Source: Planctomycetes bacterium GWF2_42_9 (lineage in GTDB: Bacteria > Planctomycetota > Phycisphaerae > Sedimentisphaerales > UBA12454). From it: a stretch of 46,021 bases of DNA. The stretch spans positions 1 to 46,021 of the forward strand of contig MHYA01000039.1 of NCBI GenBank assembly GCA_001825675.1, read 5' to 3'. Shown piece by piece: positions 4,003-29,923 of the stretch (its first letter is position 1; the number at the start of each line of letters is the position of its first letter). The notes below the pieces were generated by a model. That model was not told the DNA's origin. It searched no databases and saw nothing but the letters and a program-made list of their open reading frames with translations. Position numbers and translations under genes: made by a program.

Positions 4003-4053
4003 TTGCATTACACGCGTTGAAGCGTTATCATTGTATTGATGAAGCGTTTCAAC
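4003..4053 (+). promoter_or_regulatory. Promoter with two LacI-type operators (dockerin gene)
   Basis: TTGCAT (4003-4008), 17-bp spacer, TATCAT (4026-4031). One copy of the operator motif (GTTGAAGCGTTATCA, 4016-4030) lies between and over the core elements. A second (GATGAAGCGTTTCAAC, 4038-4053) covers the transcription start. This is the only promoter in the set with two sites; centre spacing is about 22 bp. Confidence 0.65.
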
Positions 4054-4087
4054 ACTAAATGTTGTTCCCAATCTTTAGGAGGGTATT

Positions 4088-5836
4088 ATGAATTTTAAAG
4101 GAAGAACACTATTGCCAGTACTGGCCATCCTGACAACAGCAACTTTATGTTTTGCTGAAACAGTATTTGAACAGTTCAAGCCAGATTCAACATTAACAAA
4201 AGTCGTCGAACCCAACAGCAGCGCATCATTTACTTACAGCCCTGAAGGTTATGTGGCTTGCACAGTGAGACGAAGCAATTTAGGGGGTACAGCGGCAAAA
4301 TACTACAAACCACTTAGTCAAAAATATTATATGCCGGACATAAACAATATTGCTACCACTACCGATTTATGGTTTGGATTCGATTTCAAATATGACCCAG
4401 GTTCAGCGGGAGTCGCTGCTGGATATATCGGCATCTTTAACAGTGCCGCAAGCAACACAACCGTAAGTCCTGCACAGCTAAATTGTATCGGTCTAATGCC
4501 GTATGATCTGGACAAATTTACCTTAAGAGCAGAAAAGAACGCGGCTAACGGCACTAGTTCTTTAACAGAAACAGGTTTAGGTTCTGTAATCAATGCTGCC
4601 GATTCATTCAGATGCAAAGTTCACGTTTATATGAGCGGCAACGATTCTTTGGCAGATGTCACAATTTATTCGGTTAACTCATCAAATCAGACGACACTTG
4701 TTTCATCCTTAACCGGTGCTAATATAGCAGTCGGCACAAACTTCTGGTCAGGCGTAAACGCTATCGGCGTTCGCAATATCGCTGGTTCCGACAGCACAAG
4801 CAAGTCTGTTTTCTATGTAGATAATATGTATTTTTCAACAACGGGCGAAATGGCAAATGCGAGCATTCCAACCCCTAACTGGCTTATCCCGGATGATCCA
4901 ACAACACTCACAGTTGATGATTTGTATTTCAGCCAATCGTTCCGTCCCGATCCTGTGGTCGACAATGATTGGTCGATGATTTACCAGGATTTAAGCGGTT
5001 CAGGTTTTGGCTACGATCCGAATGGATTTTATTTATGTGCAACCCGAAGAAAAAGCGATGATAATTCCGTAGCAGCACTTTATAAGCCGCTTGGTTTAAA
5101 ACTTTACGAACCATTTAATTCTAACGGCTTTAAATTCTGGTCAGCGGATGAAATTTGGTATGGATTCGATTATCAATATGTCAGCGGCACAACTGCTGCG
5201 ACATTCACCATTGGCTTATTCAACTCCGAATCTACGAACAAAGTCGGCCAAAACTGCCTTGGTTTGGAATTTCATAGCTATACAACCGTTGCAATGCGCA
5301 TCATCGGCAATACAACATGGGCAAATATTTATATGATAGAACCGACCGCTGGAAGTTACTCACAAACCTACGGCTCTTACCGATTCTACGTAAAAATCTA
5401 TGCTGACAAACTCGCGGACAAAACATTCGCCGATGTTGAATGCTACAGGTTTGATGAATTCGGAACCCTTTCCGCAACTCCTGAATTTATCACAACTGGA
5501 ATTCTCGTAGCTGACGGCACTCTTGGAAGTCCTCAAAAATTCCTTAACGGTTTTGATTGGTTTGGCGTAAGAAACAACAGCGGTGCAAACAGCACTGCTA
5601 CCAGATTTAACGTTGATAATATGTATATTTCAACCGAAGGTACAAAAGAGTTTCCGCCGCCAAGCTGGTTAATTTCCGATGCCGATTTGAACCATGATAA
5701 AGTAGTAAACATTTTGGATTTGAGCGTAATGGCAGCGAATTGGCTGTCGGATATAAATCTCAACGGAGACATTAACAACAGCGGCAGAGTAGAATTCGTT
5801 GATTTCGGAATGTTTGCGGATATATGGGCACAATAA
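4088..5836 (+). CDS. Secreted protein: two copies of a shared ~230-aa domain plus dockerin tail
   Basis: A 582-residue exported protein. Residues 1-23 are a signal peptide ending CFA. Two homologous domains follow (about 25-260 and 284-525). Each runs from an Arg-rich strand through KPLxxK(Y/L)Y and (L/I)W(F/Y)GFD(F/Y) to DNMY(F/I)ST and ends in a PxWLI segment. Residues about 531-582 form a type I dockerin: two calcium-loop repeats, DLNHDKVVNILDLSVMAANWL and DINNSGRVEFVDFGMFADIW. No catalytic motif is recognised; the domains look like beta-sandwiches and may bind glycan. An AGGAGGG ribosome site (4077-4083) fixes the start. The promoter carries two LacI-type operators, so it is probably induced with the rest of the locus. 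Confidence 0.75.
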   Translation: MNFKGRTLLPVLAILTTATLCFAETVFEQFKPDSTLTKVVEPNSSASFTYSPEGYVACTVRRSNLGGTAAKYYKPLSQKYYMPDINNIATTTDLWFGFDFKYDPGSAGVAAGYIGIFNSAASNTTVSPAQLNCIGLMPYDLDKFTLRAEKNAANGTSSLTETGLGSVINAADSFRCKVHVYMSGNDSLADVTIYSVNSSNQTTLVSSLTGANIAVGTNFWSGVNAIGVRNIAGSDSTSKSVFYVDNMYFSTTGEMANASIPTPNWLIPDDPTTLTVDDLYFSQSFRPDPVVDNDWSMIYQDLSGSGFGYDPNGFYLCATRRKSDDNSVAALYKPLGLKLYEPFNSNGFKFWSADEIWYGFDYQYVSGTTAATFTIGLFNSESTNKVGQNCLGLEFHSYTTVAMRIIGNTTWANIYMIEPTAGSYSQTYGSYRFYVKIYADKLADKTFADVECYRFDEFGTLSATPEFITTGILVADGTLGSPQKFLNGFDWFGVRNNSGANSTATRFNVDNMYISTEGTKEFPPPSWLISDADLNHDKVVNILDLSVMAANWLSDINLNGDINNSGRVEFVDFGMFADIWAQ

Positions 5837-5852
5837 AAAGTATCCTTTTTTG

Positions 5853-5881
5853 CAGGACGGCTGAAATTATCGGCCGTCCTG
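5853..5881 (+). terminator. Stem-loop after the dockerin gene
   Basis: A 9-bp perfect stem CAGGACGGC/GCCGTCCTG with an 11-base loop, 17 bases after the stop codon. No clear T tract follows, so it may act as a 3' stabiliser or a weak terminator. Confidence 0.5.
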
Positions 5882-5941: not shown

Positions 5942-5992
5942 TTGACCGGCTTTCGGTATTATGCTATAAATAAGAAGCTGAATCGCTTCAAC
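5942..5992 (+). promoter_or_regulatory. Promoter and LacI-type operator (PEP-CTERM gene)
   Basis: TTGACC (5942-5947), 17-bp spacer, TATAAA (5965-5970), then the operator copy GCTGAATCGCTTCAAC (5977-5992) over the predicted transcription start. The layout matches the other sites of this regulon. Confidence 0.7.
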
Positions 5993-6037: not shown

Positions 6038-6922
6038 ATGAAGAACAAATTATCCACCCTAACACTTGTATTGCTTGTAGTTGCCACAGCCGCACAGGCG
6101 TACACCGTTCAACAAAATTTCAATTCAGACCCTTGGAGCAATGGCTGGAGTAAAACAGAGACCGCTTCGACAATGTTTATGTACAACACGACAAACAACG
6201 TCAGCGGCACAGCAGGCTACATTGACTGCACGGTTTCCCGCAGCACATCTGCTATGGGCATTGCTTACATTCCACTTGGCCAAACTTATTATATGCCAAA
6301 CGGCCAAAACGGATCAGCTACCACAAACGATCTTTGGGTCGGCTTTGATTTACAGTTCGGCGGCGGCACTTATTCAACACAGCAAGTCAGCATAGGTCTT
6401 GTCAACAGCGCACAGACTTTCAGCGACAGCGCAACACAGAACTCTCTGGGCCTTGATCTTTGCAAAACTGCCAGCGGAATGCGTATTCGCTCTGAAACAA
6501 TAAACGGTACTGGCGGATATGTCGGGACATCAACAAACACAACTTATGCAACAATCGCAGACACCGCAACACGTCGTTACCAGGTACATTATTACCTCTC
6601 AGGCGGGAAAGTTTATGCCGATATAAAAGTCGGGACTTTTGACGCCGCAACAGGCCTATTCACAGCCAATGTTTTTACACAGAATGGCATTCAGCTTTAT
6701 GACAGCGCTGTAAGCTGGGACACTGTTGGTATGAACGCACTCGGCATTAAAAATCTTTATATGAGCACAGGCACATCAAAAGCTGTAAAATTCGTTATCG
6801 ATAATATGTATTTTTCAAGCGATAGCGAACAGTTTATGGATGTACCAGCCTGGGTAGTTCCAGAACCTGCGACAATCGCTATTCTTGCTTTGGGCGGTTT
6901 ACTGTTTAGACGTAAAAACTAA
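6038..6922 (+). CDS. PEP-CTERM surface protein carrying the shared ~230-aa domain
   Basis: A 294-residue exported protein. The signal peptide ends at AQA (about residue 21). Residues about 22-270 are one copy of the domain found twice in the preceding dockerin protein: IPLGQTYYMP, LWVGFDLQF, NALGIKN, DNMYFSS, then a PxWVV segment. The C-terminus is a PEP-CTERM signal: VPEPATIAILALGGLLFRRKN, that is VPEP, one hydrophobic helix and a basic end. Proteins with this tail are processed by an exosortase and exported to the surface or matrix. GGAGG at 6024-6028 fixes the start. It is followed by a strong terminator and so is a monocistron under its own operator. No catalytic residues are recognised. 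Confidence 0.82.
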   Translation: MKNKLSTLTLVLLVVATAAQAYTVQQNFNSDPWSNGWSKTETASTMFMYNTTNNVSGTAGYIDCTVSRSTSAMGIAYIPLGQTYYMPNGQNGSATTNDLWVGFDLQFGGGTYSTQQVSIGLVNSAQTFSDSATQNSLGLDLCKTASGMRIRSETINGTGGYVGTSTNTTYATIADTATRRYQVHYYLSGGKVYADIKVGTFDAATGLFTANVFTQNGIQLYDSAVSWDTVGMNALGIKNLYMSTGTSKAVKFVIDNMYFSSDSEQFMDVPAWVVPEPATIAILALGGLLFRRKN

Positions 6923-7075: not shown

Positions 7076-7126
7076 TTGCAATAAAACATTAAACAATATA
7101 AAATAACGGTGTTGAAACGAATCAAC
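7076..7126 (+). promoter_or_regulatory. Promoter and LacI-type operator of the LacI gene (autoregulation)
   Basis: TTGCAA (7076-7081), 17-bp spacer, TAAAAT (7099-7104), then GTTGAAACGAATCAAC (7111-7126) over the start of transcription, 19 bp before the regulator ATG. The regulator carries the same motif as the structural genes, which points to it as the binding protein and to autoregulation. Confidence 0.65.
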
Positions 7127-7145: not shown

Positions 7146-8183
7146 ATGGCAGTTACATTAAAAGAGATTGCAAAACAGGCGGGAGTTTCGCCGAGCACTG
7201 CTTCACATGCTATAAGAGGAATTCATCCGGGCAAAAGGGCTTTGTCAGGAAAAACAATCCAAAAAGTACGGGAGGTTGCTGAAAGACTAGGCTATAGGCC
7301 CAATCTTCTTGCCGCCGGACTTGCAAGAAACAAGACTTTTTCTGTTGGTGTGCTGGTCGCAACTTTGAGAGGTAATTTTTACGAAAGAATTCTCGAAGGC
7401 ATCACCGAAGTTATGCATCCGAATTTTACTCCCCTGCTGGCCATTCATAATTATCAGCCCGACCGCGAAAGAAAAGAAATTGAGGTTTTCATTGGCAAAC
7501 ACGTCGATGGAATAATCGCAGCGTATTCAGGCGATCCTGAAACAATGGCTATATATCGAGAAATTAGAGACGTACATAAAATGCCGCTGGTTCTCGTAGA
7601 TCGCGGTATCCCGCAATTCAAAAGCTATGTTGTCAGAAGCGATCATTATATGTCAACTTATATTGCCACGCGCGAATTAGGCAGACTAGGGCATAAGAAT
7701 ATAATTTTTGCGCTTGCTGGAAGAGAAACTGAAAGTACTAAAACTTTGATGGATGGATTCAACGGTGCGATCTCCGAATTAGGATTGAACAATACCGCTG
7801 ATATATTCTACAAAAAAACTCAATCATGGACTATTCATGAAATGAAAAGTTTTGCAGAAAATATTATTGATTATATCGGCAATCGCAAGCCTCAAACTAC
7901 AGCATTGCTTCTTCAGGCAGACTGGCTAGCGTATGAAGTTTTGTCGGTATGCCAGGACCGGAATATTCGAGTCCCTGAAGACCTTTCAGTTATGGGTATT
8001 GAAGACTGCGATCCGAGTTCGCTGTCCTTTATCAGTCTAAGCACTGTAAAAGTAGAATTAAATGAAGTTGGAAGACGTGCGGCCGATCTACTCATTAAAT
8101 TAATTAATGGAGAGAAGCCGGACGATCAGCCGTTGGTTATCAAACCTTCTGTGATTCTTCGCAAAACCACACGGCAATTATAA
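7146..8183 (+). CDS. LacI-family transcriptional regulator (local glycan-locus regulator)
   Basis: A 345-residue LacI/GalR protein. The N-terminal helix-turn-helix reads TLKEIAKQAGVSPSTASHAIRG, followed by the hinge region (GYRPNLLAAGLARN). From about residue 60 there is a periplasmic-binding-protein-like sugar sensor with family phrases such as VDGIIA, LGHKNIIFALAG and MGIEDCDPSSL. The gene has its own copy of the GTTGAANCGNTTCAAC site, also found upstream of five other units here, so it is the natural candidate for the repressor. It lies 87 bp upstream of the first GH84-like gene and may be co-transcribed with the hydrolase-symporter block. The inducer is unknown, probably a sugar released from the target glycan. 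Confidence 0.9.
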   Translation: MAVTLKEIAKQAGVSPSTASHAIRGIHPGKRALSGKTIQKVREVAERLGYRPNLLAAGLARNKTFSVGVLVATLRGNFYERILEGITEVMHPNFTPLLAIHNYQPDRERKEIEVFIGKHVDGIIAAYSGDPETMAIYREIRDVHKMPLVLVDRGIPQFKSYVVRSDHYMSTYIATRELGRLGHKNIIFALAGRETESTKTLMDGFNGAISELGLNNTADIFYKKTQSWTIHEMKSFAENIIDYIGNRKPQTTALLLQADWLAYEVLSVCQDRNIRVPEDLSVMGIEDCDPSSLSFISLSTVKVELNEVGRRAADLLIKLINGEKPDDQPLVIKPSVILRKTTRQL

Positions 8184-8269
8184 TTTAGTCATCCTGTCTG
8201 GGCGGGAACAGAATAAATACTTTAGTATATGCGCACTTTCTGCGCGCACATGATATGGAGTTTTCTGTT

Positions 8270-10780
8270 ATGAATAAAAAAAGGATTTGGACTGTTTGTT
8301 TAATCACTCTAACTGCTTTTGCTGCGCAATATTGCGAAGGCAAAAACATCTCAATAGTACCGGAGCCAAGAGAATACAAAACACTTGACTTGCCTGATTT
8401 TGCAATCGATGCAGATACCACAGTTTTTTACGATGGCAACTGCCCTGTCGAAACTTACGCGGCAAAACATTTAAAGAAAAGCATCAAAAAACATTACAAT
8501 TTAAATTTGAGTCTCGCCAATGACCTCAACGGTGCAAACAAAAATACCGACGGCACAAAAATAATTCTGGGTGTTACAGAAAATCCTCTTATTAAAGAGT
8601 TCTGTAAAAACAATAAAATAGAAATCAATATGGAATTGCCGGGATACGATGGTTTCATTATTAAAAACGCACAATATAAATCATCCAATATTATCATTGT
8701 ACTTGGCGCAAATCAGAGAGGCGTTACGTACGGAACAAGTGTTCTTTTCGATTTAATGAAAATCAAGAACGAAAAACTTCGCTGCCCCGCTGTTTATATT
8801 CGAGACTGGGCGACCATAAAATGGCGAGGCAGGCCGACAGAATACGTTTCACTCCAAACCGAAGACTCACTTGATACCTGCGTTCATTCGCGTATAAATT
8901 TCATCGATATACGTGATACCAACGCGCCGGGCGGTTGGGCTTTTTGCGGCAGTCCCGCAGGAGTTCCGATTGACAAGCCAAAGATAAAGAAAGTTATCGA
9001 CAACGCACACGCAAGAGGAATTTTTGTGTTCGGCACTGTTTCATGCAGCGTACCCGAGGAAAAATCCGAAGACGTTTTGAAAACTTTCCAGGAATTTATA
9101 GATGTCAAAGCCGACGGTCTTTGGGCATCGTTCGACGATATGGGCCCCGGCAAAGATTCGCCTAAACTGATTGAGCAAATAATAAAATTTGCACAGGACA
9201 ATAATATTACGCCGGACAAAATCGCAATTACACCGCCAAGCGGCTCATATCAGGAGATTGATACTGTCTGGAACAAGCAGGTTGTTGCTGTTCCGCAGGC
9301 CGAAAAGATGAAATGGTTTTTCACAAGAATCCCAAACAAATTCGATGACGATATGATGAAGAAATTCGGATTCGAATCACAACTTTGCTGGTGGCATAAC
9401 TGGCCGAGACCGAAAGGCGGTATACTGAACGATTTCGCCGGTGGAAGACCGTTATACGACAGCAAATGGGCGTATTACGAATTACTGCCTCTTTCCGCAG
9501 GCTGGAATAATCCTTCAGATCAGGAATTACTTGCCGCGGCTAATTATACCGATACCGTTATGCTTTGGCAGTCAAGACCTGCTGATTACGATTGCCATGT
9601 ACTTGGTTTGTGGGCGTGGAATCCGCAATCACATGATTTTAACGCGGTATCTCAAACAGCTTATTGTTATGTGTTCGGAAAAACGGCAGCACCAGCGGTA
9701 ACGCTATTCGACAAAAAACTTTCGAAAGTAAAAACATATTTCACCACGCCATTATATAAAAACGTCAATCCTTCGCTTTGGCCGCCGAGACTTCTCGATG
9801 TCAACGACAGACCAACCGTGATGGAAATCTTTAATGAAATGGATCTGCTTATGCAGGTTATAGAACAAAGCGCACCAAAACAGAGTATGCTTTCAAATGG
9901 AAATCTTAAAATCGATTATCTCCAGCCGATGCGCGATATCGTTAGATATGGCAAAAAAATGACAATGCTGGATTATCCTGAATATACTTTTAAAGATTTT
10001 CCTGACAGAATGCTTGCTCTGGCAGACCAGAACAATATGGAATGTATAAAATCTGAAATTAAAAAGATCAAAGCCGATGTTGAAAAACAGTGTCGAAAGA
10101 TTTCAAACGACCTTACAGGACTGAAATATATTGATGTATATGTAAAACAGTGGACTGATTATGTCTCTGATAGTGATTACTGGATTGCAGAATATAAAAA
10201 ACTCCAGGCACAAAAGACTGAAGCAGAACAAAAACGGCAGGAAGCAAAAGAAAAATTTGAAAAAGCAGTCAAAGGCGATTTCTCTGATTTATTCAAATCG
10301 CAAAATAAACCTGCTGATGGTAAAGTCCTTTTAGAAATCTCTTCGCAAACAATTCATAAAGGAAGGTATCACGCACGCGGAATATGGGCAATGGGAATGT
10401 TTGAAGACAAAGCTGTCGCCATAGCTTCCCTGCCGCAGGAAAACTATAAAGAAAGCGATATGGCAATGCTTTCAACAGAAGTAACGATTCCTAATTTTAC
10501 AAAAAGACTTTATCTTGAAGTTTATATTGCTCATATAGCTAAAGATTCGCAAACGCCGCCGCGAGAAGATATTCGCGTATCTGCGCTGCGGATCGATAAC
10601 AAAACAATCTGGAATCAGGACTTGAATGTACCACTCAAAGGCTGGCAAATAAACGATATTACTGATGTTGCCAAATCTGGCGATAAGGTAACTATTCGCT
10701 TCCTTGTTTCCAATAGAGTTATTCCTGAAGGGTATGACACGATTGTGTTCTTCGGGCCGGCAAGATTAGTTGAAAGATAA
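8270..10780 (+). CDS. Secreted GH84-like glycoside hydrolase (paralogue 1)
   Basis: About 836 residues from the ATG at 8270; another ATG 15 bases upstream is possible, but GGAG lies 9 bases before 8270 and the signal peptide starts there. The signal peptide is followed by a hexosaminidase N-terminal alpha/beta domain (IVPEPREYK, RGVTYG; about 27-180). A TIM-barrel-like catalytic region holds an adjacent Asp pair in SFDDMG (D289/D290), as in GH84 O-GlcNAcase/beta-N-acetylglucosaminidase enzymes. A helical segment and a C-terminal beta-domain of about 150 residues follow. Its neighbour is a 33-bp-distant paralogue. Likely an exo-acting hexosaminidase; because of distance from characterised enzymes it could be a new subfamily or another N-acetyl-sugar enzyme. 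Confidence 0.6.
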   Translation: MNKKRIWTVCLITLTAFAAQYCEGKNISIVPEPREYKTLDLPDFAIDADTTVFYDGNCPVETYAAKHLKKSIKKHYNLNLSLANDLNGANKNTDGTKIILGVTENPLIKEFCKNNKIEINMELPGYDGFIIKNAQYKSSNIIIVLGANQRGVTYGTSVLFDLMKIKNEKLRCPAVYIRDWATIKWRGRPTEYVSLQTEDSLDTCVHSRINFIDIRDTNAPGGWAFCGSPAGVPIDKPKIKKVIDNAHARGIFVFGTVSCSVPEEKSEDVLKTFQEFIDVKADGLWASFDDMGPGKDSPKLIEQIIKFAQDNNITPDKIAITPPSGSYQEIDTVWNKQVVAVPQAEKMKWFFTRIPNKFDDDMMKKFGFESQLCWWHNWPRPKGGILNDFAGGRPLYDSKWAYYELLPLSAGWNNPSDQELLAAANYTDTVMLWQSRPADYDCHVLGLWAWNPQSHDFNAVSQTAYCYVFGKTAAPAVTLFDKKLSKVKTYFTTPLYKNVNPSLWPPRLLDVNDRPTVMEIFNEMDLLMQVIEQSAPKQSMLSNGNLKIDYLQPMRDIVRYGKKMTMLDYPEYTFKDFPDRMLALADQNNMECIKSEIKKIKADVEKQCRKISNDLTGLKYIDVYVKQWTDYVSDSDYWIAEYKKLQAQKTEAEQKRQEAKEKFEKAVKGDFSDLFKSQNKPADGKVLLEISSQTIHKGRYHARGIWAMGMFEDKAVAIASLPQENYKESDMAMLSTEVTIPNFTKRLYLEVYIAHIAKDSQTPPREDIRVSALRIDNKTIWNQDLNVPLKGWQINDITDVAKSGDKVTIRFLVSNRVIPEGYDTIVFFGPARLVER

Positions 10781-10813: not shown

Positions 10814-13315
10814 ATGTTCAGCAGATTCAAAATTACAGCATTGATTATTTCGGCATTGTTTATTAATGCGGTTTCTATTGCCGCTGATTGTCCGATCGTT
10901 CCAACACCGAAAGAATACAAATCTCTCGGCGACGAATTCCAATTAACCGGAGAAACAGTTATCGTAATTGGCGATAACGCAACTGAAGTGGATGAATATG
11001 CCGCCCAAAAGCTTCAATCTTATATTAACAAAAAATTCGGCGTTAAACCGGAGATTGTAAAAGCAGCGGATTCGCAAAACACAAAATCAATGATTCTGCT
11101 CGGAACACGTCAAAGCTGCAATGAAATTGACCAGCTTTGCAAAGATAAAAATTTTGCTCTCGATGCAAATACACCCGGATTTGACGGATATATCATCGAG
11201 ACAATCGAAAATGATAACGGCTATATCGTTGTTATAGGCGGTTCAAATGCACGCGGCGTTACTTACGGTATGACTTCATTTTTTGACTTGCTGAAAAAAG
11301 AAAATGACAAAATTATGTTCCCGGCTGTTTCAATAAAAGACTGGCCTTCAATAAAATGGAGAGGCAGAAATTGCGCCAAAGTCGTTAGTGAAGAAGCGTA
11401 TGATAGTTATGTTCGCGCGAGAATAAATTACGTTGATACTCTCTATCCAATGGTCGGCCTGCCGAAAACCGGCTTTACTATCGATGAAGAAAGAATTACG
11501 AACGTTCTAAACCAGGCACATCGCAGAGGTCTTTTTGTTTTCGGCGTTGTTAATTGCGCAGTCAAGCCAGAATTTTTCGACAATGTATATGATTCTTATG
11601 TAAAGCTGCTCGATATGGGCGTTGACGGTATATGGCTCTCATTTGATGACGCAGGCGAAGGCCTTAACGCCGATATACTCATCAAACGTGTGCTTGATCT
11701 TGCAAAGAAACGCAATTTGCCGGATCACGCAATAGTAATGACTCCACCTGCAGGTTCATATCACAATATCGAAACATCCTGGAATAAGTATATGGCTTCC
11801 CAGCAGGGATTTGACAATATTACATGGTTCTTCACACGTCCGCCTTGTGATTGCGACCTTGAAACAGCACGCAAAATCGGTCTCAACACCAAACTTCCCG
11901 GCTGGTGGCATAACTGGGCACGACCGGCAAGCGGCCTTTTAAATTCCGCTTACGGCGTAAGTATGTATGATAAATCACCTTATTTTGAACCTATGCCTTT
12001 GGAAATCGGCTGGCATACGCCCACTTACGATGAACTTGCCGATGCTCCTAAATATTCCGATACCATCGTTGCCTGCACCGATGGACGCGAGGAATATGTA
12101 ATGCCTGTTCTGGGTTATTGGGCGTGGGATCCTGCCAAACACAACTGGGACTCTGTCAGAACTTCCATTTATACTTTCGTTTATGGTGCCGCACAGGTAA
12201 ACGATGCCAAAACATTCGATGATAGTTTTATAAAATTGAAAAATCTCTTTAAGCGTATGCATTACAAATCTCAATCACCTGATCTATGGCCGCCAAGACT
12301 TATCGACCCCGCAAAAAAACCGCAGGCAATCGAGTATGTGAGCGCTATGGATAAAGCTCTGAAAAATTTAAAGGCAAACGCACCAGCGGCAACAATGCTT
12401 GATGCAAAGAGACTGGAGTCCGTTTATTTTGACGCAATGCAGGATACTGTCGATTACGGCATAAAACTGACAAGTTACGATTATCCTGAATATTGGCTTA
12501 AAGATTTTGACGAATCGATGATTGCACTTACCAAAAAAGATTCACAAGCCGCAGCCAAACGTCTTGCTGAAATTAAACCAAAAGTTGAGGCGCAGCTTGC
12601 GGAAATATCTGCAGGTTTGAAGAATATTAAAGGCATAAACGAATATGTCAGCTACTGGAATGAAAAACTTTCAGGAATTGAATACTGGCAAAAACAGATA
12701 AAGTCGCGAAAAGCCAAAAAAGTAAAAGAACAACAAGACCGTCAGGAAATTGCTCAAATATGGCAATCGTCCCCAAAGGCAGATTATAGCAAACTGCTTG
12801 CCGCTATGGACAACAGACCGAAAGGCAAAGTTCTACTCGAAATTAAACCTGCTCAATTTGAAAAAGAAAGTTCATATTCCTGGACAGGCAGCGGATGGGC
12901 AATGGGACTTACCAAAGCAGGTAAGAATGAAGCATTCGCGATTCAATTCGATGGAACGTGCAACGCTCAAGATACGGCAAGTCTTAACGGCAAACTGGTT
13001 GTTCCGCAGCATAAAGGCAAATTGCAAGTCGCTGTTTTTGCAACACATATTTATGACGACAAAAACAATCCCCCTGCCAAAGGCAACAGAGTGAGCGTTG
13101 TTCAATTCGACAGAAAATGGGTATGGGTGCAGGATTCTACCAACGATATGACAGGACACGAATGGGTTGTATTCGATTTGGCGTGGAGCGATGCAGGCCC
13201 TGTTTTGGCCGGCGATGTTTTGCCGATTAACTTAATTGTGTACAGTCACGAAACAACTTCTAATCTGAAGAGTACGGTTTTGTTCGGGCCTATTCTTGTT
13301 TTAGAAACTGAATAA
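10814..13315 (+). CDS. Secreted GH84-like glycoside hydrolase (paralogue 2)
   Basis: An 833-residue paralogue with the same layout: signal peptide ending in SIAA, hexosaminidase-type N-terminal domain (CPIVPTPKEYKSL, ARGVTYGMTSFFDLL), catalytic region with the Asp pair SFDDAG (D278/D279) and the shared GxWWHNWARPxxGLLN stretch, helical linker rich in Lys/Glu, and C-terminal beta-domain. AGGAAGG before the ATG fixes the start. The two copies are clearly diverged in sequence, so they probably split substrate specificity rather than being a recent duplication. It is followed at once by a 46-aa membrane peptide and an SSS symporter, suggesting that released sugar is imported. Confidence 0.6.
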   Translation: MFSRFKITALIISALFINAVSIAADCPIVPTPKEYKSLGDEFQLTGETVIVIGDNATEVDEYAAQKLQSYINKKFGVKPEIVKAADSQNTKSMILLGTRQSCNEIDQLCKDKNFALDANTPGFDGYIIETIENDNGYIVVIGGSNARGVTYGMTSFFDLLKKENDKIMFPAVSIKDWPSIKWRGRNCAKVVSEEAYDSYVRARINYVDTLYPMVGLPKTGFTIDEERITNVLNQAHRRGLFVFGVVNCAVKPEFFDNVYDSYVKLLDMGVDGIWLSFDDAGEGLNADILIKRVLDLAKKRNLPDHAIVMTPPAGSYHNIETSWNKYMASQQGFDNITWFFTRPPCDCDLETARKIGLNTKLPGWWHNWARPASGLLNSAYGVSMYDKSPYFEPMPLEIGWHTPTYDELADAPKYSDTIVACTDGREEYVMPVLGYWAWDPAKHNWDSVRTSIYTFVYGAAQVNDAKTFDDSFIKLKNLFKRMHYKSQSPDLWPPRLIDPAKKPQAIEYVSAMDKALKNLKANAPAATMLDAKRLESVYFDAMQDTVDYGIKLTSYDYPEYWLKDFDESMIALTKKDSQAAAKRLAEIKPKVEAQLAEISAGLKNIKGINEYVSYWNEKLSGIEYWQKQIKSRKAKKVKEQQDRQEIAQIWQSSPKADYSKLLAAMDNRPKGKVLLEIKPAQFEKESSYSWTGSGWAMGLTKAGKNEAFAIQFDGTCNAQDTASLNGKLVVPQHKGKLQVAVFATHIYDDKNNPPAKGNRVSVVQFDRKWVWVQDSTNDMTGHEWVVFDLAWSDAGPVLAGDVLPINLIVYSHETTSNLKSTVLFGPILVLETE

Positions 13316-13467: not shown

Positions 13468-13479
13468 TGGGTGTTTATT

Positions 13480-15060: not shown

Positions 15061-15111
15061 TTGACACCTTTTGAAAAAAGTGCTATATTTAAATTGTTGA
15101 AACGATTCAAC
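15061..15111 (+). promoter_or_regulatory. Strong promoter and near-perfect LacI-type operator (pseudopilin gene)
   Basis: TTGACA (15061-15066), 17-bp spacer, TATATT (15084-15089), then GTTGAAACGATTCAAC (15096-15111) at the predicted transcription start. The -35 is consensus, and the operator has 7-bp complementary arms around an imperfect centre, the best-matching site in the window. Confidence 0.75.
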
Positions 15112-15178
15112 GTTTTGTTGCACCGCTTTAATAAAGTTTAGCTGATTAGGAAATCGAATGATTTTCGGAGAGATGGTT

Positions 15179-22424: not shown

Positions 22425-25400
22425 ATATGTATCCTGTCGGACTGGTATCATAAGAAATATTCACTACCCTGCCGTCTGCTAAATTAACCGTCCAATTTGT
22501 TGAACTGTTTGCGGTTACGGTTTGTACAAGGGATGATCTGCTGGAACTTAGCGGAACTAGCAAAGTTAAGAATTGTACCGTTCCTGAACCTGATCGTTTG
22601 TACTGTACAGTTGTAGCGGTTGTATTTGTTGCACCGATTTTCCAGCCGAGAATTTCAGGCGTTGTTTGGCCTGAAGTTTTATAAAAAGACAAACCCGAAG
22701 TTATAAGCGGAACAATTTCAAGATTGGCCATACCGGAGTTTGTAGTTGTAACCCAGTTTGTATTGCGAACCGATGTGCTTGTAGTATTCAAGTGCCAGCG
22801 TACATCATAAGTATGACTAGAAGAATCTCTGGCAACCATCGTATCACACACAATGAAAATATCAGGTTTAAGAAAATATATTCTTCTATAATGGCGTGCG
22901 GGATAGACCCAGCCCTGTCCCCAGTCGCTATCGTCCCAGTATGGATACGCATCGGAATTTCCCTGGCCTGCTTTGCCATAAGCATTTTCGTATACGCCTG
23001 AAGCGAAATCGTGCGCCGAATCCGTTATCCATCTGCAATCTGAAACAGGCGTATAAGGCATTTGCACAGGCTGCGGAGTTCCCCAGCTTCTTCTCTGCGG
23101 ACGATTATCAACCATTACAGTATTATGAGAAAAAGCATCCATCGCATATTCAGACATTGGGTTATCGGTATAATCTACACGTTCCGAATCAAAAAGAATT
23201 TTCCGGCCGTAAGCCCAAAGCACAACATTCAGCTTATCCTGATGCGCATGTGCCTTGCCGATTGGGCCGACATCAAAGCCCAGATAATTCGCATTTGACG
23301 ACCACCCGCTTCGCATCGCGATATAGCCGGCATAAGGCAGTATCGCGGAACTGTATGCAGGAGCGGAACCCTGCGAGCCGCTTGTCGCAATATATTTGAA
23401 ATCAGAACGCGATGGATAATACTGGTAATATGAATTCAGAAAACTTCTGACATCTAATTCATAATTATCACTATATGAAGGGTCTTTGCCGTCAGGCGCC
23501 ATAATTTTTACAAACGAATCAAGAGGCGTTTCACACAATGGAATGATTTGATTTACATTCAATTCATTTTCGCGCTCAACAGCTTTCGCAAGGTCGGAAA
23601 TAGTAAAATAATTATAAAAAGCCTGTGCATAAGCCGGCGTTAATTCAATACCCATACCGTCAGGCAAATAGCTTTCCGTCATATCACCGAGTACGGTTTG
23701 ACAAACGTAATTCCGCCATTCCGTCGATTCCGAAAATTCCGGGTAGAATACTCCGGTGCTGTAAAGCCCTGCCATTGCGAAAGTAAGCCAATTACCGGAG
23801 GTCGCATGGTTTAAACGCAGATGCTTAGCCTGTTCGTACGCAGATTTGACTGCAATGATCATCGTATCATCATCGAATAACGGAGAATCCAGACAGTACG
23901 CAAAAGCATTCAACCAGCCCGTACGCATTCGAATACCTGTCGCGATCGTCGTCCAATAATGATTGTCAACATCTGCCGCCTTGGTTACCTGCCCAATCCA
24001 GCTCCGCATTACATTAAGATAATCAGTAACAGCCGGATATTCAGTTCCAGAATACCAATACGCCCTGCCGAGCGTTTCAAGAAAATACATCCTGTACCAA
24101 TTCCCCGAAAGCTCTGGAGTATTAAGCCAATCGTAATCGCCGTTAGGAAGCCAATAATTATTATTGTAAAGGCCGGTGTGATTGGCGAAATCGTACGCAT
24201 AAGTTAAATCAGAAGCTGTCCCCTGTGAAGGAACTTTAATATGCGGATCCCACCACCAGACTTTTTCTGTCCGCTGTCTTAGATATTTGGCAAACTCTTT
24301 TCGCGCATTAGTATAGTTGCCTTGCTGAACGGCAGTTTTGACTGCGTTAAGACCGGGGTAATTTACATTAAGAACGGTATTAAAAAATTGACTATCCGTC
24401 AAAACTGTATCTGTTGCGGTTGGCTTATAAATAAATTTATCACTTGTTGCAAGTTGCCAGCCGCTGCCCTGCTTTGCAAGAAGAGCCGCATTGTTTTCGT
24501 CAGTTCCGCACGGATTATAAATATTATAAATTTCCTGCTGTGCTGAAGTAGTCAGAATCCGTTTCGTTGAATAACTTACAAATAAACGATTGCGTTTATC
24601 TATCGAAAGCACCTGATTATAAAAAGTTTCAGGCGACGCCTGCGAAGCATTATCATTCCACGGCGTAACTAAATTCGTCGGCGTTGCCCACGACTGGCCG
24701 CTTTGTTTATAAGCATATTTCAACGCTCTGTCGTTACCCAAAATATCCGCCGCGACAATATGAAGAATACCGCTTGTATCGCACACCATACTTGCACGAA
24801 CAAGCCCCGTAATAGTTTCGGGTGAATTCCAAGCCGTAACAGAATTTGGCTGCGTTGATTTGAAGTATGTACAATATTTGCCGGCTCCGCCAGTGTACGG
24901 ATTTAAAATTACGTGAAGATAGCCGTTATTATCTATTGATATGCAGGGCCAATTAAATTCGTTTGGTTCGCCATTGTCAGAATTGCCAATTAGCACCACA
25001 TTTTTAGAACTTGTGCCGCGGTCATAAGTAATCCCGTAAATTGGCGTACCTGCTGTACCGTTAGCTGTTCCGCACGGGAAAACAATATGAGTTTTATTAT
25101 TCTTAGTTACAAGAACATTCGATTGATTATTAAATCCCTGTCCGGCAACCTGAATAGTCGTAAGTGCCACAGGGGTCGAGAAAGAAGGATTCCCGTTGGT
25201 ATCCTTTGAAACCATAATAAGGCCCAGAGTATTTACGCCGTTCTGCATATAGCGAATCAGAAGCGACGGCGGCCCGAAATCATTGTTGCCGTCTTTGCAT
25301 TCCATAGTAACATCAAGAGGCGAACCCAGAATAACATACGCACTCCAAGATTTACCTCTGTCTTTAGAGTGCATCAGGCAAAAACCGATTGAGGATGGAT

Positions 25401-26529
25401 TTGCGATTGCGTAAATCGAATTATAATTATCTACATAAATTCTCTTTTCGCTGCATACTTGATAAGTGCCATCCCATTGCGTATGTTCGCTGAAGATCGC
25501 ATCTGAATAATCCGACCTGTATTTTACGCCGTTATAATCTGTTACGTCAACCCAGTAATCGCCTTTAAAATATTCGAAATCATCTGGCCCGAAAGCAGCA
25601 GGTGCGGGCGTATAGCGTGGATTATATCCGAAAAGCTCACGTTCATGTCTGAAATATGTTTGATGCTGAATCGGGGCATTTACGCTATTTATCCCAGGCC
25701 TGATTTCAGGAGCATTGCCTATATATGTTATCTCTGCACCAACACCAGGTCCCGCGACCCATTTCGGAAAAACAGTATCAGGCATCGGCGAAATAGTTGA
25801 AAAATAAAAATTATCCATATTATAGGATGGAGCAGTGCTTGTATAAGAAGTTGAATTGTACGCGTTTCTCACCCCGATAGCATCAAGACCCGAAGCAAAT
25901 TTATTCGTACCGCTTAAAATAACGCCCGAAACATTCCCTGCCGCAAACCATTGCTGCGAATCGGTACCCCATTGATAAAGCTGCACATCGGCCATCGTAC
26001 TGCCGGCTTGATTATAAACGTGCATTTTTACTCTATAAGTAGCTGTCGAGACAGTACCTGCTATCGGAGAAAGCTGAACAGTGTAAGCTGAACCCGTTGA
26101 TGTGTTCTGCTGCGCCTGCGCAATAATAGAAGCACCGCCCAAAATAATCGCGATCCAATTTCGATTAGTGCTTGCGGTGAGATTATCACTTTGAGAATAG
26201 AAAAGCCCAACAACCGAATGATAACCTGTCGTGCCGGAAAGATACTGAAAATCAAAACCAAGCCAGAATTCGCTTACCGTCCCTGCAACAGTATTCGCAG
26301 GTATTGAATCCTGACCTAAAAGGGTATAAAGCTGCGCTACAGTATTAGCACCATTTTTTCTTTTAAGCTGCGCATTTATGTAGCCGGAATAAATGTTAAA
26401 AACCGAATCGCTGCCTGATTCAACTCTTTGAAGCCAATTATTGGCATTCCAATTTTGCAGTATTGTCCCGCAACGGACATTCGCCGAGATAATCAGTAAT
26501 AATATAAGTGAAATCAGTTTGCTTTTCAT
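22408..26529 (-). CDS. Secreted three-module protein: shared domain, BNR propeller, heparinase II/III-type lyase
   Basis: About 1,373 residues from the ATG at 26529 (another ATG is 6 bases upstream); the signal peptide ends near residue 22. Residues about 24-262 are a fourth copy of the shared domain (LWLGFDFQY-type core, DNFYFST end, PKWV). Residues about 270-700 are BNR-type propeller repeats (HSKDRGKSWSAYVIL; SIDNNGYLHVILNPY). Residues about 730-1370 resemble polysaccharide lyases of the heparinase II/III-alginate lyase type: an alpha toroid with a GNWLTFAMAG stretch, then GKAHAHQDKLNVVLWAYG near residue 1095 and SHNTVMVDNRPQ near 1137, followed by a beta-sandwich. Probably cleaves a uronic-acid polysaccharide outside the cell. 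The promoter carries a LacI-type operator. Confidence 0.75.
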   Translation of the reverse strand: MKSKLISLILLLIISANVRCGTILQNWNANNWLQRVESGSDSVFNIYSGYINAQLKRKNGANTVAQLYTLLGQDSIPANTVAGTVSEFWLGFDFQYLSGTTGYHSVVGLFYSQSDNLTASTNRNWIAIILGGASIIAQAQQNTSTGSAYTVQLSPIAGTVSTATYRVKMHVYNQAGSTMADVQLYQWGTDSQQWFAAGNVSGVILSGTNKFASGLDAIGVRNAYNSTSYTSTAPSYNMDNFYFSTISPMPDTVFPKWVAGPGVGAEITYIGNAPEIRPGINSVNAPIQHQTYFRHERELFGYNPRYTPAPAAFGPDDFEYFKGDYWVDVTDYNGVKYRSDYSDAIFSEHTQWDGTYQVCSEKRIYVDNYNSIYAIANPSSIGFCLMHSKDRGKSWSAYVILGSPLDVTMECKDGNNDFGPPSLLIRYMQNGVNTLGLIMVSKDTNGNPSFSTPVALTTIQVAGQGFNNQSNVLVTKNNKTHIVFPCGTANGTAGTPIYGITYDRGTSSKNVVLIGNSDNGEPNEFNWPCISIDNNGYLHVILNPYTGGAGKYCTYFKSTQPNSVTAWNSPETITGLVRASMVCDTSGILHIVAADILGNDRALKYAYKQSGQSWATPTNLVTPWNDNASQASPETFYNQVLSIDKRNRLFVSYSTKRILTTSAQQEIYNIYNPCGTDENNAALLAKQGSGWQLATSDKFIYKPTATDTVLTDSQFFNTVLNVNYPGLNAVKTAVQQGNYTNARKEFAKYLRQRTEKVWWWDPHIKVPSQGTASDLTYAYDFANHTGLYNNNYWLPNGDYDWLNTPELSGNWYRMYFLETLGRAYWYSGTEYPAVTDYLNVMRSWIGQVTKAADVDNHYWTTIATGIRMRTGWLNAFAYCLDSPLFDDDTMIIAVKSAYEQAKHLRLNHATSGNWLTFAMAGLYSTGVFYPEFSESTEWRNYVCQTVLGDMTESYLPDGMGIELTPAYAQAFYNYFTISDLAKAVERENELNVNQIIPLCETPLDSFVKIMAPDGKDPSYSDNYELDVRSFLNSYYQYYPSRSDFKYIATSGSQGSAPAYSSAILPYAGYIAMRSGWSSNANYLGFDVGPIGKAHAHQDKLNVVLWAYGRKILFDSERVDYTDNPMSEYAMDAFSHNTVMVDNRPQRRSWGTPQPVQMPYTPVSDCRWITDSAHDFASGVYENAYGKAGQGNSDAYPYWDDSDWGQGWVYPARHYRRIYFLKPDIFIVCDTMVARDSSSHTYDVRWHLNTTSTSVRNTNWVTTTNSGMANLEIVPLITSGLSFYKTSGQTTPEILGWKIGATNTTATTVQYKRSGSGTVQFLTLLVPLSSSRSSLVQTVTANSSTNWTVNLADGRVVNISYDTSPTGYIYANFQ

Positions 26530-26554
26530 CTTCATTCCATAAACAACAAGTACT

Positions 26555-26599
26555 GTTGAAGCCCTTCAACATTATATTAAATTACGACACCCGATACAA
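26555..26599 (-). promoter_or_regulatory. Promoter and LacI-type operator (lyase-dockerin operon)
   Basis: Minus strand: TTGTAT (26599-26594), 17-bp spacer, TATAAT (26576-26571), then the operator GTTGAAGGGCTTCAAC (26570-26555) directly after the -10, 20-25 bp before the gene. The central CG of the other sites is GG here, but the arms are perfect. Confidence 0.72.
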
Positions 26600-26625: not shown

Positions 26626-27648
26626 TTAGCTGTTTTCCTGCATTGATTTCAGCATAGCGATGACATTTTCAGGTTTTGCGCCCGGCGGAATCGTATGCGA
26701 TGGGCAAACAATTACGCCCCCATCACGGCCAAGATCGAGCAAATGTTTTGTTTCCTGATATACCTGCTCTTGAGTACCGAAGGCCAGCGCATCCTGCGTA
26801 CTTACGCCGCCCCAGAAACAAAGCCGTTTTTTATAAGTTTTTACCGTCCAATCGACATCGATAACCTCCGGCTGGAAGGGATTGAAACTATCTACTCCTA
26901 TTTCGATCAAGTCGTCAAAAAGCTCCTGTACTTTGCCGCAGGAATGGATCGAAACAAATTTTCCCGCATCCCGAACAATTCCATACATTTTTTTTATATA
27001 AGGTTTAATGTACGTCCGCCACATCTTCGGCGAAATCATAAGACCCAACTGCGTCCCCCAGTCATCGCCGAAATGAACACCTTCAAATTCAAGATTGGCT
27101 ATCGCGCGTTTTAGTACCGCACAATTATAATCGCATATCCTCCCGAAATATTCTGTAACAAAAGTCGGGTCGGCGGCAAAATCCATCATCAGATTTTCCA
27201 TCCCTCGCATCGCCCACGCCCTTTCCCACAATGAAAGATTTAACCTTGCCTGTCGGTACTTGCCATCAGCTTTTGCTTTATTGAAAGTTTCACGAGCCTT
27301 GGAAAAAAATAAATCCGGCAGCGCTTCGGGAAATTCATAATCTTTAAAATTTTCTGGCGTGATCCAGGCATTTTCAGGCACACCAATGTTTTTATCCTGT
27401 GTACGATTCCAGATAACACCGAAAACATCCTTATAAAAGCCCCGCCTGACAATTTCGCCCGCGGGTTCGAGATCAACCCTCGCCACCGGCAGTTCAATAT
27501 ATTTGCTGATATAATTTTTATCTCCCGTGTATGCGGCCATCTCCGCTTCCATATCGACAGTACAACGCACTTCACACGGTACGTGATCGGCAGGTTTATG
27601 CGTTAATGCGGCTATCATCCGTTCAACCGGCGGCATTTTCATTTCCAT
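26626..27648 (-). CDS. Uroporphyrinogen-decarboxylase-fold protein, possible corrinoid methyltransferase
   Basis: A 340-residue UroD-superfamily protein, last of three in tandem. It has HSCG at about 244 and a later Cys in VCPSHTIPPGAKPENV, giving the H-x-C-Xn-C pattern that binds zinc in MtaA/MtbA-type methyltransferases. HemE itself lacks that pattern, so haem synthesis is unlikely. It follows the 370-aa paralogue by 8 bases with AAAGGA before its ATG. No corrinoid protein gene is visible, so the methyl acceptor would be encoded elsewhere. UroD-like genes of unknown role are frequent near glycan loci of Planctomycetes and Lentisphaerae; demethylation of methylated sugars is a possible role. 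Confidence 0.75.
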   Translation of the reverse strand: MEMKMPPVERMIAALTHKPADHVPCEVRCTVDMEAEMAAYTGDKNYISKYIELPVARVDLEPAGEIVRRGFYKDVFGVIWNRTQDKNIGVPENAWITPENFKDYEFPEALPDLFFSKARETFNKAKADGKYRQARLNLSLWERAWAMRGMENLMMDFAADPTFVTEYFGRICDYNCAVLKRAIANLEFEGVHFGDDWGTQLGLMISPKMWRTYIKPYIKKMYGIVRDAGKFVSIHSCGKVQELFDDLIEIGVDSFNPFQPEVIDVDWTVKTYKKRLCFWGGVSTQDALAFGTQEQVYQETKHLLDLGRDGGVIVCPSHTIPPGAKPENVIAMLKSMQENS

Positions 27649-27656
27649 AAAATCCT

Positions 27657-28769
27657 TTACTTGAATTTCGCATTGTATTCATCAACAATTTGACCAACGA
27701 TACGAATACGTTCCAGATTTCCGGTAGATGAAATTTCGTCTGAAATACCAAGCACCAGTTTAGGAGCGAAAAGCTCTATACATTTTTTTGTATATTCGAT
27801 AAGCGTTTCTTCGGGAAACATATCATCGAAAAGAATCGCAGGAATTCCATCCATCATTACCATATCCTTCGGCAACGCTTCGCGAATTTCCCCCAGCGTA
27901 ACATCGCCCTGTGGTTTTGGCGTTATCGCTTCGATCCCATCGAGACCGGTTTGTGAAAGATATTTAAGCAGCGGTTTGGTTTCGCCATCCCAATGCGATG
28001 AAACAAATTTGCCCGCCTTATGCAGCTTTTCACATCTTCTGCGACAGGCCGGCAAATGATATTTTAAAAACAATTCTTCGCCAATAGTCCCCGCGTGAAT
28101 ATTTTCACCAAAATTAAGTATATCGATCGGTGATTTATTTATGAGCTCGATTAATTTGTTATGACAGAATTCAAGTGATTCAAAATAAGCATCTACAGTC
28201 TTTGGCCAGTCTAAAATAGCGTAAATACCTTTCTCCACCCCCATTTTCGAAAGGTACAAATCTTGTATGTTCATTCGCGGGATATACATCGTGGGAGCGC
28301 CAAGCCCTTTCCATTTTTCGGCAATTTTGTCATACTCTTGCTTGTCAAAACGCCAATCAGCGTGTAATTCCCGCCACGTCGCAACTTTCAATTCATCTTC
28401 CGTTTCAACTTCACGTTTGATATGAATCGGCACATCGCTGTTGGGAGTATTTCGCAAAATAACCTTCTGGCAGCCAACGGGTGTGCTTATAATTTTCTCA
28501 AAATCCGTATCATTGAGCATTCGGATTGTTTCTTTTACTTCACAATGTTCGATTCGCTTGAAACTGAAGCGGTAATCATAGATTCTCGCCGAACAGCCCA
28601 AAGAACGATAAATATCAGGCAAATCCATACCGGCATATTTTTGCGGAAAAGGGGTTTTGAAAAATTTTCTGTCATAAAACCACGCCCCTATTCTCGGCTG
28701 CCAGATAATTTTCCCGCCCGCTCTGCCAAACACAACATCAGTATGAAGTTTGTTGAAATCCGTCGTCAT
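27657..28769 (-). CDS. Uroporphyrinogen-decarboxylase-fold protein (paralogue without Cys motif)
   Basis: A 370-residue member of the same superfamily, the middle of three. The TIM-barrel phrases are present (ILNFGENIHAGTIGEELFLKYHLPACRRRCEKLHKAGKFV; GLDGIEAITPKPQGDVTLGEIREAL). The zinc-type HxC is replaced by HWDG (SSHWDGETKPLL), and no later partner Cys is seen, so it should not bind zinc in the methyltransferase way. It may have a different reaction, or work as a partner of the Cys-bearing paralogue. It lies 18 bases after the first gene of the trio. Confidence 0.72.
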   Translation of the reverse strand: MTTDFNKLHTDVVFGRAGGKIIWQPRIGAWFYDRKFFKTPFPQKYAGMDLPDIYRSLGCSARIYDYRFSFKRIEHCEVKETIRMLNDTDFEKIISTPVGCQKVILRNTPNSDVPIHIKREVETEDELKVATWRELHADWRFDKQEYDKIAEKWKGLGAPTMYIPRMNIQDLYLSKMGVEKGIYAILDWPKTVDAYFESLEFCHNKLIELINKSPIDILNFGENIHAGTIGEELFLKYHLPACRRRCEKLHKAGKFVSSHWDGETKPLLKYLSQTGLDGIEAITPKPQGDVTLGEIREALPKDMVMMDGIPAILFDDMFPEETLIEYTKKCIELFAPKLVLGISDEISSTGNLERIRIVGQIVDEYNAKFK

Positions 28770-28787
28770 TCGTCCCCCAAATTGAAA

Positions 28788-29759
28788 TTATTCAGAATAA
28801 TTTCCGAATTTTCGCCAGACATCAAGCATTAATTCGTATCTCTCAAGTTGCATACCTGTATAAATGCAGTTGCTTGTCGAGAAAATATAACCGCCGCCTG
28901 GCATACCGTGCTTGAGCGCATATTGTGCGGATTCTACTACTTCCTGCTCTGTTCCAGTATCCATCAAACCGCAGTTTACATTTCCAATAAGACAAACTTT
29001 TTTACCGATCATTTTTTTTATCTCGGCAATATCGATACCGCCCTGCGGATCAAGGCTGTGGATCGCGTGCGGTCTGGCATCGACAAGATAATCAAGTACA
29101 GGCATAATATTGCCGTCAGTGTGTTTAATTGTGTAATAGCCCATCTGGCGATAAGCAGAAATAAGCTGCTTAAGATACGGCGCGACAAACTCACCAAACA
29201 TCTGCGGCGAAAGAAACGGCCCCGTATTAAGACAATAATCACAGCACATTCCAAAACAATCGAGCACACCACGCTTCTTTATATAGGCAGCTCTTTCAAT
29301 CGCATCATCTATTTTTTTCTGCGCTTCGTCTTTGAGTTTTTGAGGATTGTCGGCAATGGAACTAATGAACTCCAGCATTCTGTCGCCTGCGGGCACATCA
29401 TACGTTGCGTCGCCGTGCATCATAAGCAAAAATTCATCACCGCTTTTCTCACGAATTTTTTCCAAAACTGCCAGCGTATTTCCAAGCCTGTCGTTACCCC
29501 ATAATTCCGGCCCATTGACAAATATAGCACTTTGTTCAAATCGCCGGGCAATACTAATAAACAGACCTGCCATATCATCTATATGCAGTGCCTGTTCAGA
29601 TGAGTGCATTTGATCCCATTGATGATAAGACCTGTGGCGAGGATGAACTTTTCCAAAAGCCTGCATCGTCAAAAAGAAAACCAGTTCAAAATGAGGCACT
29701 CTGCCGGGCGGCTGCTTACCTTCCAACGCCATTATAAACTTCTGTTTGGGGGTCATCAT
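28788..29759 (-). CDS. Uroporphyrinogen-decarboxylase-fold protein (first of three)
   Basis: About 323 residues from the ATG at 29759; an ATG 15 bases upstream is also possible. It has the superfamily core (PGRVPHFELVFFLTMQAFGK; CDYCLNTGPFLSPQMFGEFVAPYLKQLI; HAIHSLDPQGGIDIAEIKK). At the metal site it reads IKHTDGNIMPVL, that is HxD like the middle paralogue, not HxC. It heads the three-gene operon and is divergent from the GH38-like gene, sharing a 193-bp intergenic region that holds a LacI-type operator. The operator is placed for the plus-strand promoter, but it could also affect this operon. Confidence 0.72.
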   Translation of the reverse strand: MMTPKQKFIMALEGKQPPGRVPHFELVFFLTMQAFGKVHPRHRSYHQWDQMHSSEQALHIDDMAGLFISIARRFEQSAIFVNGPELWGNDRLGNTLAVLEKIREKSGDEFLLMMHGDATYDVPAGDRMLEFISSIADNPQKLKDEAQKKIDDAIERAAYIKKRGVLDCFGMCCDYCLNTGPFLSPQMFGEFVAPYLKQLISAYRQMGYYTIKHTDGNIMPVLDYLVDARPHAIHSLDPQGGIDIAEIKKMIGKKVCLIGNVNCGLMDTGTEQEVVESAQYALKHGMPGGGYIFSTSNCIYTGMQLERYELMLDVWRKFGNYSE

Positions 29760-29874
29760 TTTTTCTCGCAACATAACACGGTTTTTTTATATCTTTTTTA
29801 GTCTCTTATAAATTCTACCATTTAAAGAACCAAACCCAGTTGAATTGATACGACTACAAAATAACATAATTTCC

Positions 29875-29923
29875 TTGAAAATCAAATAAAATCGTATTAT
29901 TATAGACGTTGAAGCGTTTCAGA
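29875..29923 (+). promoter_or_regulatory. Promoter and LacI-type operator (GH38-like gene)
   Basis: TTGAAA (29875-29880), 17-bp spacer, TATTAT (29898-29903), then GTTGAAGCGTTTCAGA (29908-29923) over the predicted start. One arm has two mismatches at its end. It sits in the divergent region shared with the UroD-like operon. Confidence 0.65.

Follow-up and report, generated by a model that had tools for sequence, protein, structure and literature searches.

The 46,021-nt stretch analysed here (the window; contig MHYA01000039.1 of Planctomycetes bacterium GWF2_42_9) contains six copies of a palindromic element with the consensus GTTGAANCGNTTCAAC at the promoters of a glycan-related locus. The element is conserved at the promoters of orthologous genes in another family and co-occurs with LacI-family regulators that carry a His residue in their recognition helix. 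We infer, with a probability of roughly 85%, an autoregulated local regulon of the LacI type, in which six promoters are bound at GTTGAANCGNTTCAAC and repressed by the LacI protein encoded at 7146-8183 or by a paralogue that shares its reading helix. A LacI dimer would occupy the element just past the -10 box, with its centre at about +2 to +8, and would block RNA polymerase. Genes for glycan degradation, lectin-like surface proteins and a prepilin-like protein would thereby be silenced together with the regulator's own operon, consisting of LacI, two GH20b/GH67N-domain proteins and probably an SSF symporter. Release would presumably be triggered by a sugar or sugar phosphate derived from the glycan.

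Contig C39, which carries the window, is part of a 4.86-Mb metagenome-assembled genome (here G000; 214 contigs, 92% complete, 7% contamination). The genomes used most for comparison are G001 and G004, which belong to the same genus, and GWF2_50_10 (G013), which represents another family within the order and is 84% complete. The sites in the window are given below with their scores in bits against a matrix built from sites outside it.

4016-4031, plus strand: half-site, possibly an accessory cooperative site, 22 bp upstream of 4038 and inside the promoter spacer.
4038-4053, plus strand: operator of the gene for a 582-aa dockerin-like protein with lectin-like domains; one mismatch, score 19.3, 6 bp after the -10 box; the GWF2_50_10 orthologue likewise has an operator.
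5977-5992, plus strand: operator of the PEP-CTERM protein gene; one mismatch, score 20.4; promoter matching at 10 of 12 positions and ending 6 bp before the site.
7111-7126, plus strand: operator for autoregulation, with the LacI start codon 19 bp further on; one mismatch, score 22.4; kept before the LacI orthologues in G001, G004 and G013.
15096-15111, plus strand: operator of the prepilin-like gene, identical to the consensus, with a promoter of 11 of 12; the order SSF gene, operator, prepilin-like gene is repeated in a paralogous cluster on contig C115.
15117-15132, plus strand: a further site, weak and possibly accessory, 21 bp beyond 15096; three mismatches, score 12.0.
26555-26570, minus strand: operator of the lyase-dockerin operon; one mismatch, score 19.2; immediately follows TATAAT on the minus strand.
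29839-29854, minus strand: weak candidate operator of a three-gene URO-D operon; three mismatches, score 12.2 (1.55 matches of at least 12 expected), promoter 8 of 12.
29908-29923, plus strand: operator of the GH38 gene; two mismatches, score 14.9; the GWF2_50_10 GH38 orthologue (58% identity) has a one-mismatch site.

With up to three mismatches allowed, GTTGAANCGNTTCAAC matches the window 11 times against 3.06 expected, and none of 100 shuffles reached 11 matches. A preliminary description of the window had listed seven sites. Six of these are full operators; the remaining one, at 4016 (GTTGAAGCGTTATCAT), lies outside the 11 matches, differs from the consensus at four positions by hand count and scores 8.2, where 11.8 chance matches of at least 8 are expected. 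Since it fits by its left half alone, we speak of six full operators and one half-site. The matrix was derived from five sites on contigs C115 and C44 of G000 and upstream of the LacI orthologues in G001, G004 and G013; it is independent of the window in sequence but not in hypothesis, because these five sites came from the earlier pattern or from their position before a LacI gene. Its six highest scores in the window (14.9 to 24.1) fall on exactly the six full sites. Markov sequences of the same length give an expectation of 0.41 matches of at least 14 bits, and the seventh-best score in the window, 13.3, lies within an open reading frame (ORF). All six full sites are intergenic, a class that makes up 6.3% of the window positions according to our gene list. 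They have the form of even palindromic operators, with a central CG in five and CC at 26555. In a scan of 96 offsets around 14 sites for accessory copies, -22 ranked first on both scores and +21 fourth (full sites) and third (half-sites); these are raw ranks without a null and are carried mostly by two promoters.

Each site had been described as lying at or just after a -35/-10 pair with a 17-bp spacer. The best promoter pair indeed ends 0, 4, 6, 6, 6 and 6 bp before the six full sites, but the spacer is 17 bp at only five of them; at 4038 it is 18 or 17 bp (17 by hand count), and either alternative matches at just 8 of 12 positions. A promoter score of at least 9 of 12 is found at five of the six, and 4.5% of intergenic positions reach that value with the same geometry. 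When sites on other contigs and in other genomes are included, the best promoter ends 0-6 bp before the site in 13 of 15 site-gene pairs (of 18 rows, the half-site 4016 and the two alternative GWF2_50_10 pairings were set aside). The operators overlie the presumed transcription start, which is the position expected of a repressor.

In GWF2_50_10, places with at most one mismatch to the consensus number four genome-wide, against none for the control pattern, and all are located in two divergent intergenic regions. One region lies between orthologues of two window genes, the URO-D gene 26626-27648 (58% identity) and the dockerin-like gene 4088-5836 (36%); the second lies between the GH38 orthologue and LacI. 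All four sites therefore stand at promoters of orthologous genes, and each of the four promoters has one that starts 4-6 bp past its best -10 box. LacI is followed there by homologues of both GH20b/GH67N-domain proteins and the dockerin-like gene by a PEP-CTERM homologue; the overall gene order is not that of the window. The site at the GH38 orthologue supports 29908, the weakest full site of the window. Likewise, the good site at the URO-D orthologue points to the URO-D operon, whose own candidate at 29839 in the window is degenerate, as a further target, and from this comparison the operon is likely to be an additional unit of the regulon.

The regulator at 7146-8183 exceeds the cut-offs of both PF00356 (43.2 bits) and PF13377 (101.2 bits), the helix-turn-helix and the periplasmic-binding-type sensor domain of the LacI family. 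Its nearest named relatives come from Planctomycetes bacterium GWF2_41_51 (81% identity) and GWF2_50_10 (66%), with records from its own genome possibly excluded; both organisms we take to belong to the class Phycisphaerae. All recognition helices were read among the 29 LacI helix-turn-helix matches of G000, and three have His where LacI itself has Arg22, a position that Camas et al. number AA-20. These His-type proteins share the helix S-[PLA]-S-T-[AV]-S-H-A and comprise the window LacI and its paralogues on C44 (61% identical) and C115 (52%). RbsR and PurR likewise carry His at this position. All three genes adjoin an operator. Together with the LacI genes of G001, G004 and G013 they make six His-type genes, and in five (window, C44, G001, G004, G013) the site lies 18-25 bp before the gene. 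The sixth, on C115, sits just past an operator-controlled prepilin-like gene, with the operator before the latter and LacI directly downstream. Among 161 genomes of the order, LacI relatives were found at E ≤1e-70 in seven, G000 included. An operator accompanies LacI in all four genomes with the His helix (G000, G001, G004, G013), and no site of comparable strength was found near the His-less LacI of G014, G024 and G054. The CGAATCAA variant present in the autoregulatory site of the window recurs in that of G004 and G013 and is absent from that of G001 and C44. That the LacI gene carries the operator it would respond to is thus borne out at its orthologues. The assignment of the regulator, offered before as inference, now has comparative evidence in the co-occurrence of helix and operator, and it is well supported at the sequence level that a LacI of the His type acts at these sites.

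The six units named in the preliminary description, on both strands, do carry sites; the LacI unit is larger than the single gene given there, since it also comprises the two GH20b/GH67N-domain proteins and probably the symporter. The genes concerned are:

4088-5836, plus strand: secreted 582-aa protein with two lectin-like domains; at the C-terminus it has a dockerin-like repeat (recognised by eye; no Pfam hit).
6038-6922, plus strand: 294-aa protein with one lectin-like domain and a PEP-CTERM tail that scores 19.9 bits, just below the cut-off of 20.7.
7146-8183, plus strand: LacI-family regulator, recognition helix S-P-S-T-A-S-H-A.
8255-10780, plus strand: 841-aa GH20b/GH67N-domain protein downstream of LacI, probably in its operon; the order is kept in GWF2_50_10.
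10814-13315, plus strand: 833-aa GH20b/GH67N-domain protein, in the operon of the preceding protein.
13471-15009, plus strand: SSF sodium:solute symporter, perhaps in the LacI operon (155-bp gap).
15158-16042, plus strand: prepilin-like protein (N_methyl).
21528-22451, minus strand: LamG-fold protein downstream of the lyase; weak dockerin match of 20.4 bits, under the cut-off of 22.9.
22408-26535, minus strand: 1375-aa lyase with an N-terminal lectin-like domain and heparinase II/III-like domains; matches heparinase III.
26626-29774, minus strand: three URO-D superfamily genes (26626-27648, 27657-28769 and 28788-29774).
29968-32862, plus strand: GH38 alpha-mannosidase-like enzyme; matches bacterial alpha-mannosidases.

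The only NCBIfam model to match the GH38 protein, mannosylglycerate hydrolase, stays under its cut-off. In G000 a profile of the lectin-like domain (E 1e-4) reports four copies, all in three operator-controlled genes: two in the dockerin-like protein, one in the PEP-CTERM protein and one at the N-terminus of the heparinase-like lyase. A single-sequence search yielded two extra places, on C95 (40 residues, mainly PEP-CTERM tail) and on C141 (26% over 131 residues, E 3.4e-5), which were not counted as copies because the profile does not report them. The domain also occurs at five places each in G004 and G014, and no operator of at least 12 bits was seen in the 1.5-kb flanks of these places; the link between domain and operator hence holds for G000 and G013 and is not universal. 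An initial structure model of the domain had a predicted local distance difference test score (pLDDT) of 50, too poor for use, and was replaced by one based on seven rows (mean pLDDT 70, predicted template modelling score 0.78). Its best structural matches are mostly legume lectins and otherwise concanavalin-like sandwiches, at template modelling scores of at most 0.51 and root mean square deviations of 6-11 Å. This model hints at a lectin-like sandwich; a fold match does not prove sugar binding.

Two exosortase copies in G000 fit sorting by PEP-CTERM tails. A cohesin partner is a feature of cellulosomes, and no cohesin (PF00963, E 0.001) was found in this 92% complete assembly. Similarly, Bacteroidetes-type polysaccharide utilisation loci feature a SusC/SusD transporter pair; the Pfam matches of the 29 window proteins scanned include no TonB or SusD family, and SSF symporters are present instead. 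The earlier tie of proteins of unknown role to one substrate is not supported as stated. Our guess would be a glycan that contains uronate and mannose.

Genome-wide in G000, eight places have at most one mismatch, against four for the backwards control pattern, and five of them lie in the window. This agrees with the compact, local cluster described before; the regulon is less self-contained than was described, with an exact site in the right promoter geometry at the paralogous cluster on C115 and another site 18 bp before the solitary LacI paralogue on C44. These two adjoin LacI paralogues, and they account for two of the three strong sites beyond the window. The third, C173:47103 upstream of a DUF5060 gene, was excluded for want of a fitting promoter and is probably a chance match. 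Promoter geometry, rather than random coding position, characterises seven of the eight places. With two mismatches allowed, 26 places compare with 20 for the control, which is near chance, and such places outside the window were not taken as regulon members. As an indicator of the presence of the regulator, site counts over 59 genomes performed weakly: 18 places fall in the four genomes that have a His-type LacI (control 7) and 36 in the remaining 55 (control 27). The signal is carried by the location of the sites and not by their number.

Several observations weigh against a local glycan regulon. In G001 and G004 the sole convincing site is upstream of a solitary LacI itself. Of the five other places there with at most one mismatch, four overlap ORFs of at least 100 aa and the fifth, at G001 C2:79244, falls between genes, with the next start some 320 bp away. 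Around this LacI no glycan gene of the window was recognised in the stretches of G001 and G004, bar one weak URO-D match in G001; its neighbours are recG in G001 and DnaA-like and SRP54-type genes in G004. The G004 LacI site has no good upstream promoter (7 of 12, gap 18 bp), the promoter at C173:47103 matches at 8 of 12 with a gap of 29 bp, and in G024 the His-less LacI is preceded, at a distance of about 215 bp, by a degenerate palindrome of 11.6 bits. The assembly of G000 is fragmented, with the completeness and contamination given above. Moreover, Cra also activates, so the sequence does not force repression.

A reading of the sites as palindromes due to chance, or as some general element of promoters or terminators singled out by eye, might be argued from the two-mismatch counts and from the seventh claimed site, which is no full match. 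The concentration of close matches in the locus speaks against this, and the conservation at orthologous genes in GWF2_50_10 largely refutes it, leaving it very improbable. A Cra-like activator or repressor of central metabolism would agree with the operator core, which equals the Cra consensus, and with FruR as the best match of the headpiece. This, too, we regard as unlikely, since the window LacI scores 94.7 bits against a cut-off of 385 with the curated FruR/Cra model, three of the eight strong sites lie beyond the window, two of them beside LacI paralogues, and the operators have the position of a repressor.

More weight belongs to the question of which LacI acts. Since this operator is also found at two paralogous LacIs elsewhere, the regulon may lack insulation, and the main regulator could be the solitary C44 or the C115 copy, or all three could share the sites. 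The S-x-S-T-[AV]-S-H-A helix is common to the three and each gene adjoins a site; the C44 LacI and its G001 orthologue are solitary yet have one, within a recG neighbourhood in which 10 of 10 compared genes are conserved, LacI included. Conversely, the window LacI lies within the cluster in an operon with its own site, and the single LacI of this type found in GWF2_50_10 (E ≤1e-60) is the glycan-cluster copy, so that control chiefly from elsewhere, or shared by all three, appears possible but doubtful. With similar reserve we consider that the three paralogues may have kept one operator after duplication, so that the window cluster, the C115 cluster and the solitary LacI beside recG share or compete for sites. 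If so, several effectors would converge on lectin-like surface proteins that, by profile search, are restricted to this set in the genome. The preferred reading remains the regulon under the window LacI or a paralogue with the same helix.

Some further observations concern LacI and prepilin genes of these genomes. A solitary LacI with operator (L076:6738-7778 and L198:53-1090) is recG-adjacent in two members of the genus, and sugar genes linked to it were not seen. The paralogous cluster at C115:22000-32457 duplicates a large part of the window, with URO-D genes, DeoR, an ArgZ-like/GSU2086-type protein, a PfkB-HAD kinase, SSF, the prepilin-like gene and LacI; relative to the window it has an extra SIS-domain gene, and its SIS/PfkB/HAD set resembles heptose-phosphate enzymes. 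Tandem palindromes at C86:8760-8797, an exact GGTCAAACGGTTGACC and a two-mismatch copy 22 bp off, lie upstream of a LacI gene whose product has Lys at AA-20; this may be another LacI under autoregulation, with its sites spaced for cooperativity. Within the window, the palindrome AGGTTACCGGTAACCC at 39811-39826 lies 85 bp before the assumed start codon of a second LacI (39875-40879), and its core occurs once in the window at up to three mismatches. G000 has 88 matches to the prepilin N_methyl motif, several on contigs shared with LacI genes. Prepilin-like (pseudopilin) genes as a general LacI-controlled class were rejected: a CG-centred palindrome with 6 of 7 arm pairs up to 160 bp upstream (start taken as the nearest in-frame ATG, possibly wrong) was found at 3 of 88, against 0.86 expected from shuffles, and two of the three are the present operator, the third being unrelated.

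A literature search found no planctomycete LacI-family regulon described among the matches listed, nor did the matches listed for the operator string, or for planctomycete proteins of the dockerin/PEP-CTERM kind, contain anything relevant. The accessible part of PMC11131199 does not mention 'LacI', and 'Planctomycet' is absent from the main text of PMC4052901. The sites thus provide a testable regulon for a group in which this search found none described. In it the dockerin-like, PEP-CTERM and lyase-fused forms of a lectin-like domain are placed under a single switch, which they share with a heparinase-like lyase and a GH38 enzyme.

As regards known systems, the operator core TGAANCGNTTCA is identical to that of Cra/FruR of Gammaproteobacteria, for which the accessible part of PMC8088597 gives the consensus TGAAAC-GTTTCA; the DNA code is therefore not new. 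Among PDB entries, the FruR headpiece also matches the DNA-binding domain best by sequence, the two having a longer loop and the T-A-S of the helix in common. The window helix differs in having His for the FruR Tyr and P-S for R-T at specificity positions, the operator flanks are GT/AC, the targets are local glycan genes, and the curated model is far from reached. Full-length PDB comparison gives CcpA proteins as best sequence matches, also of the LacI family, but the score against the curated CcpA model is 133.2 of 442.35 bits and CcpA is global rather than local. Similar in organisation are the local LacI sugar regulons of Ravcheev et al. 2014 (PMC4052901), where, in the part available, CG-centred even palindromes, autoregulation of 72% of the studied regulators and paired sites about 22 bp apart are reported. 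The present regulon resembles them in the central CG, autoregulation, few neighbouring targets and site spacing (22 bp from 4016 to 4038, 21 bp at 15096), but it extends to a prepilin-like gene and to genes for lectin-like surface proteins. In the available part of Camas et al. 2010 (PMC2978694), the LacI code is read by AA-15, AA-16 and AA-20, and an Arg at AA-20 is paired with G at NT-6. The window LacI has His at AA-20 and its operator T at NT-6, a combination beyond the TVSR group to which those rules apply; the joint change of both fits their logic beyond the group analysed and would add a His/T pair to the recognition code. The class of regulator and the operator core are already known; of interest are the targets and an operator common to three paralogues.

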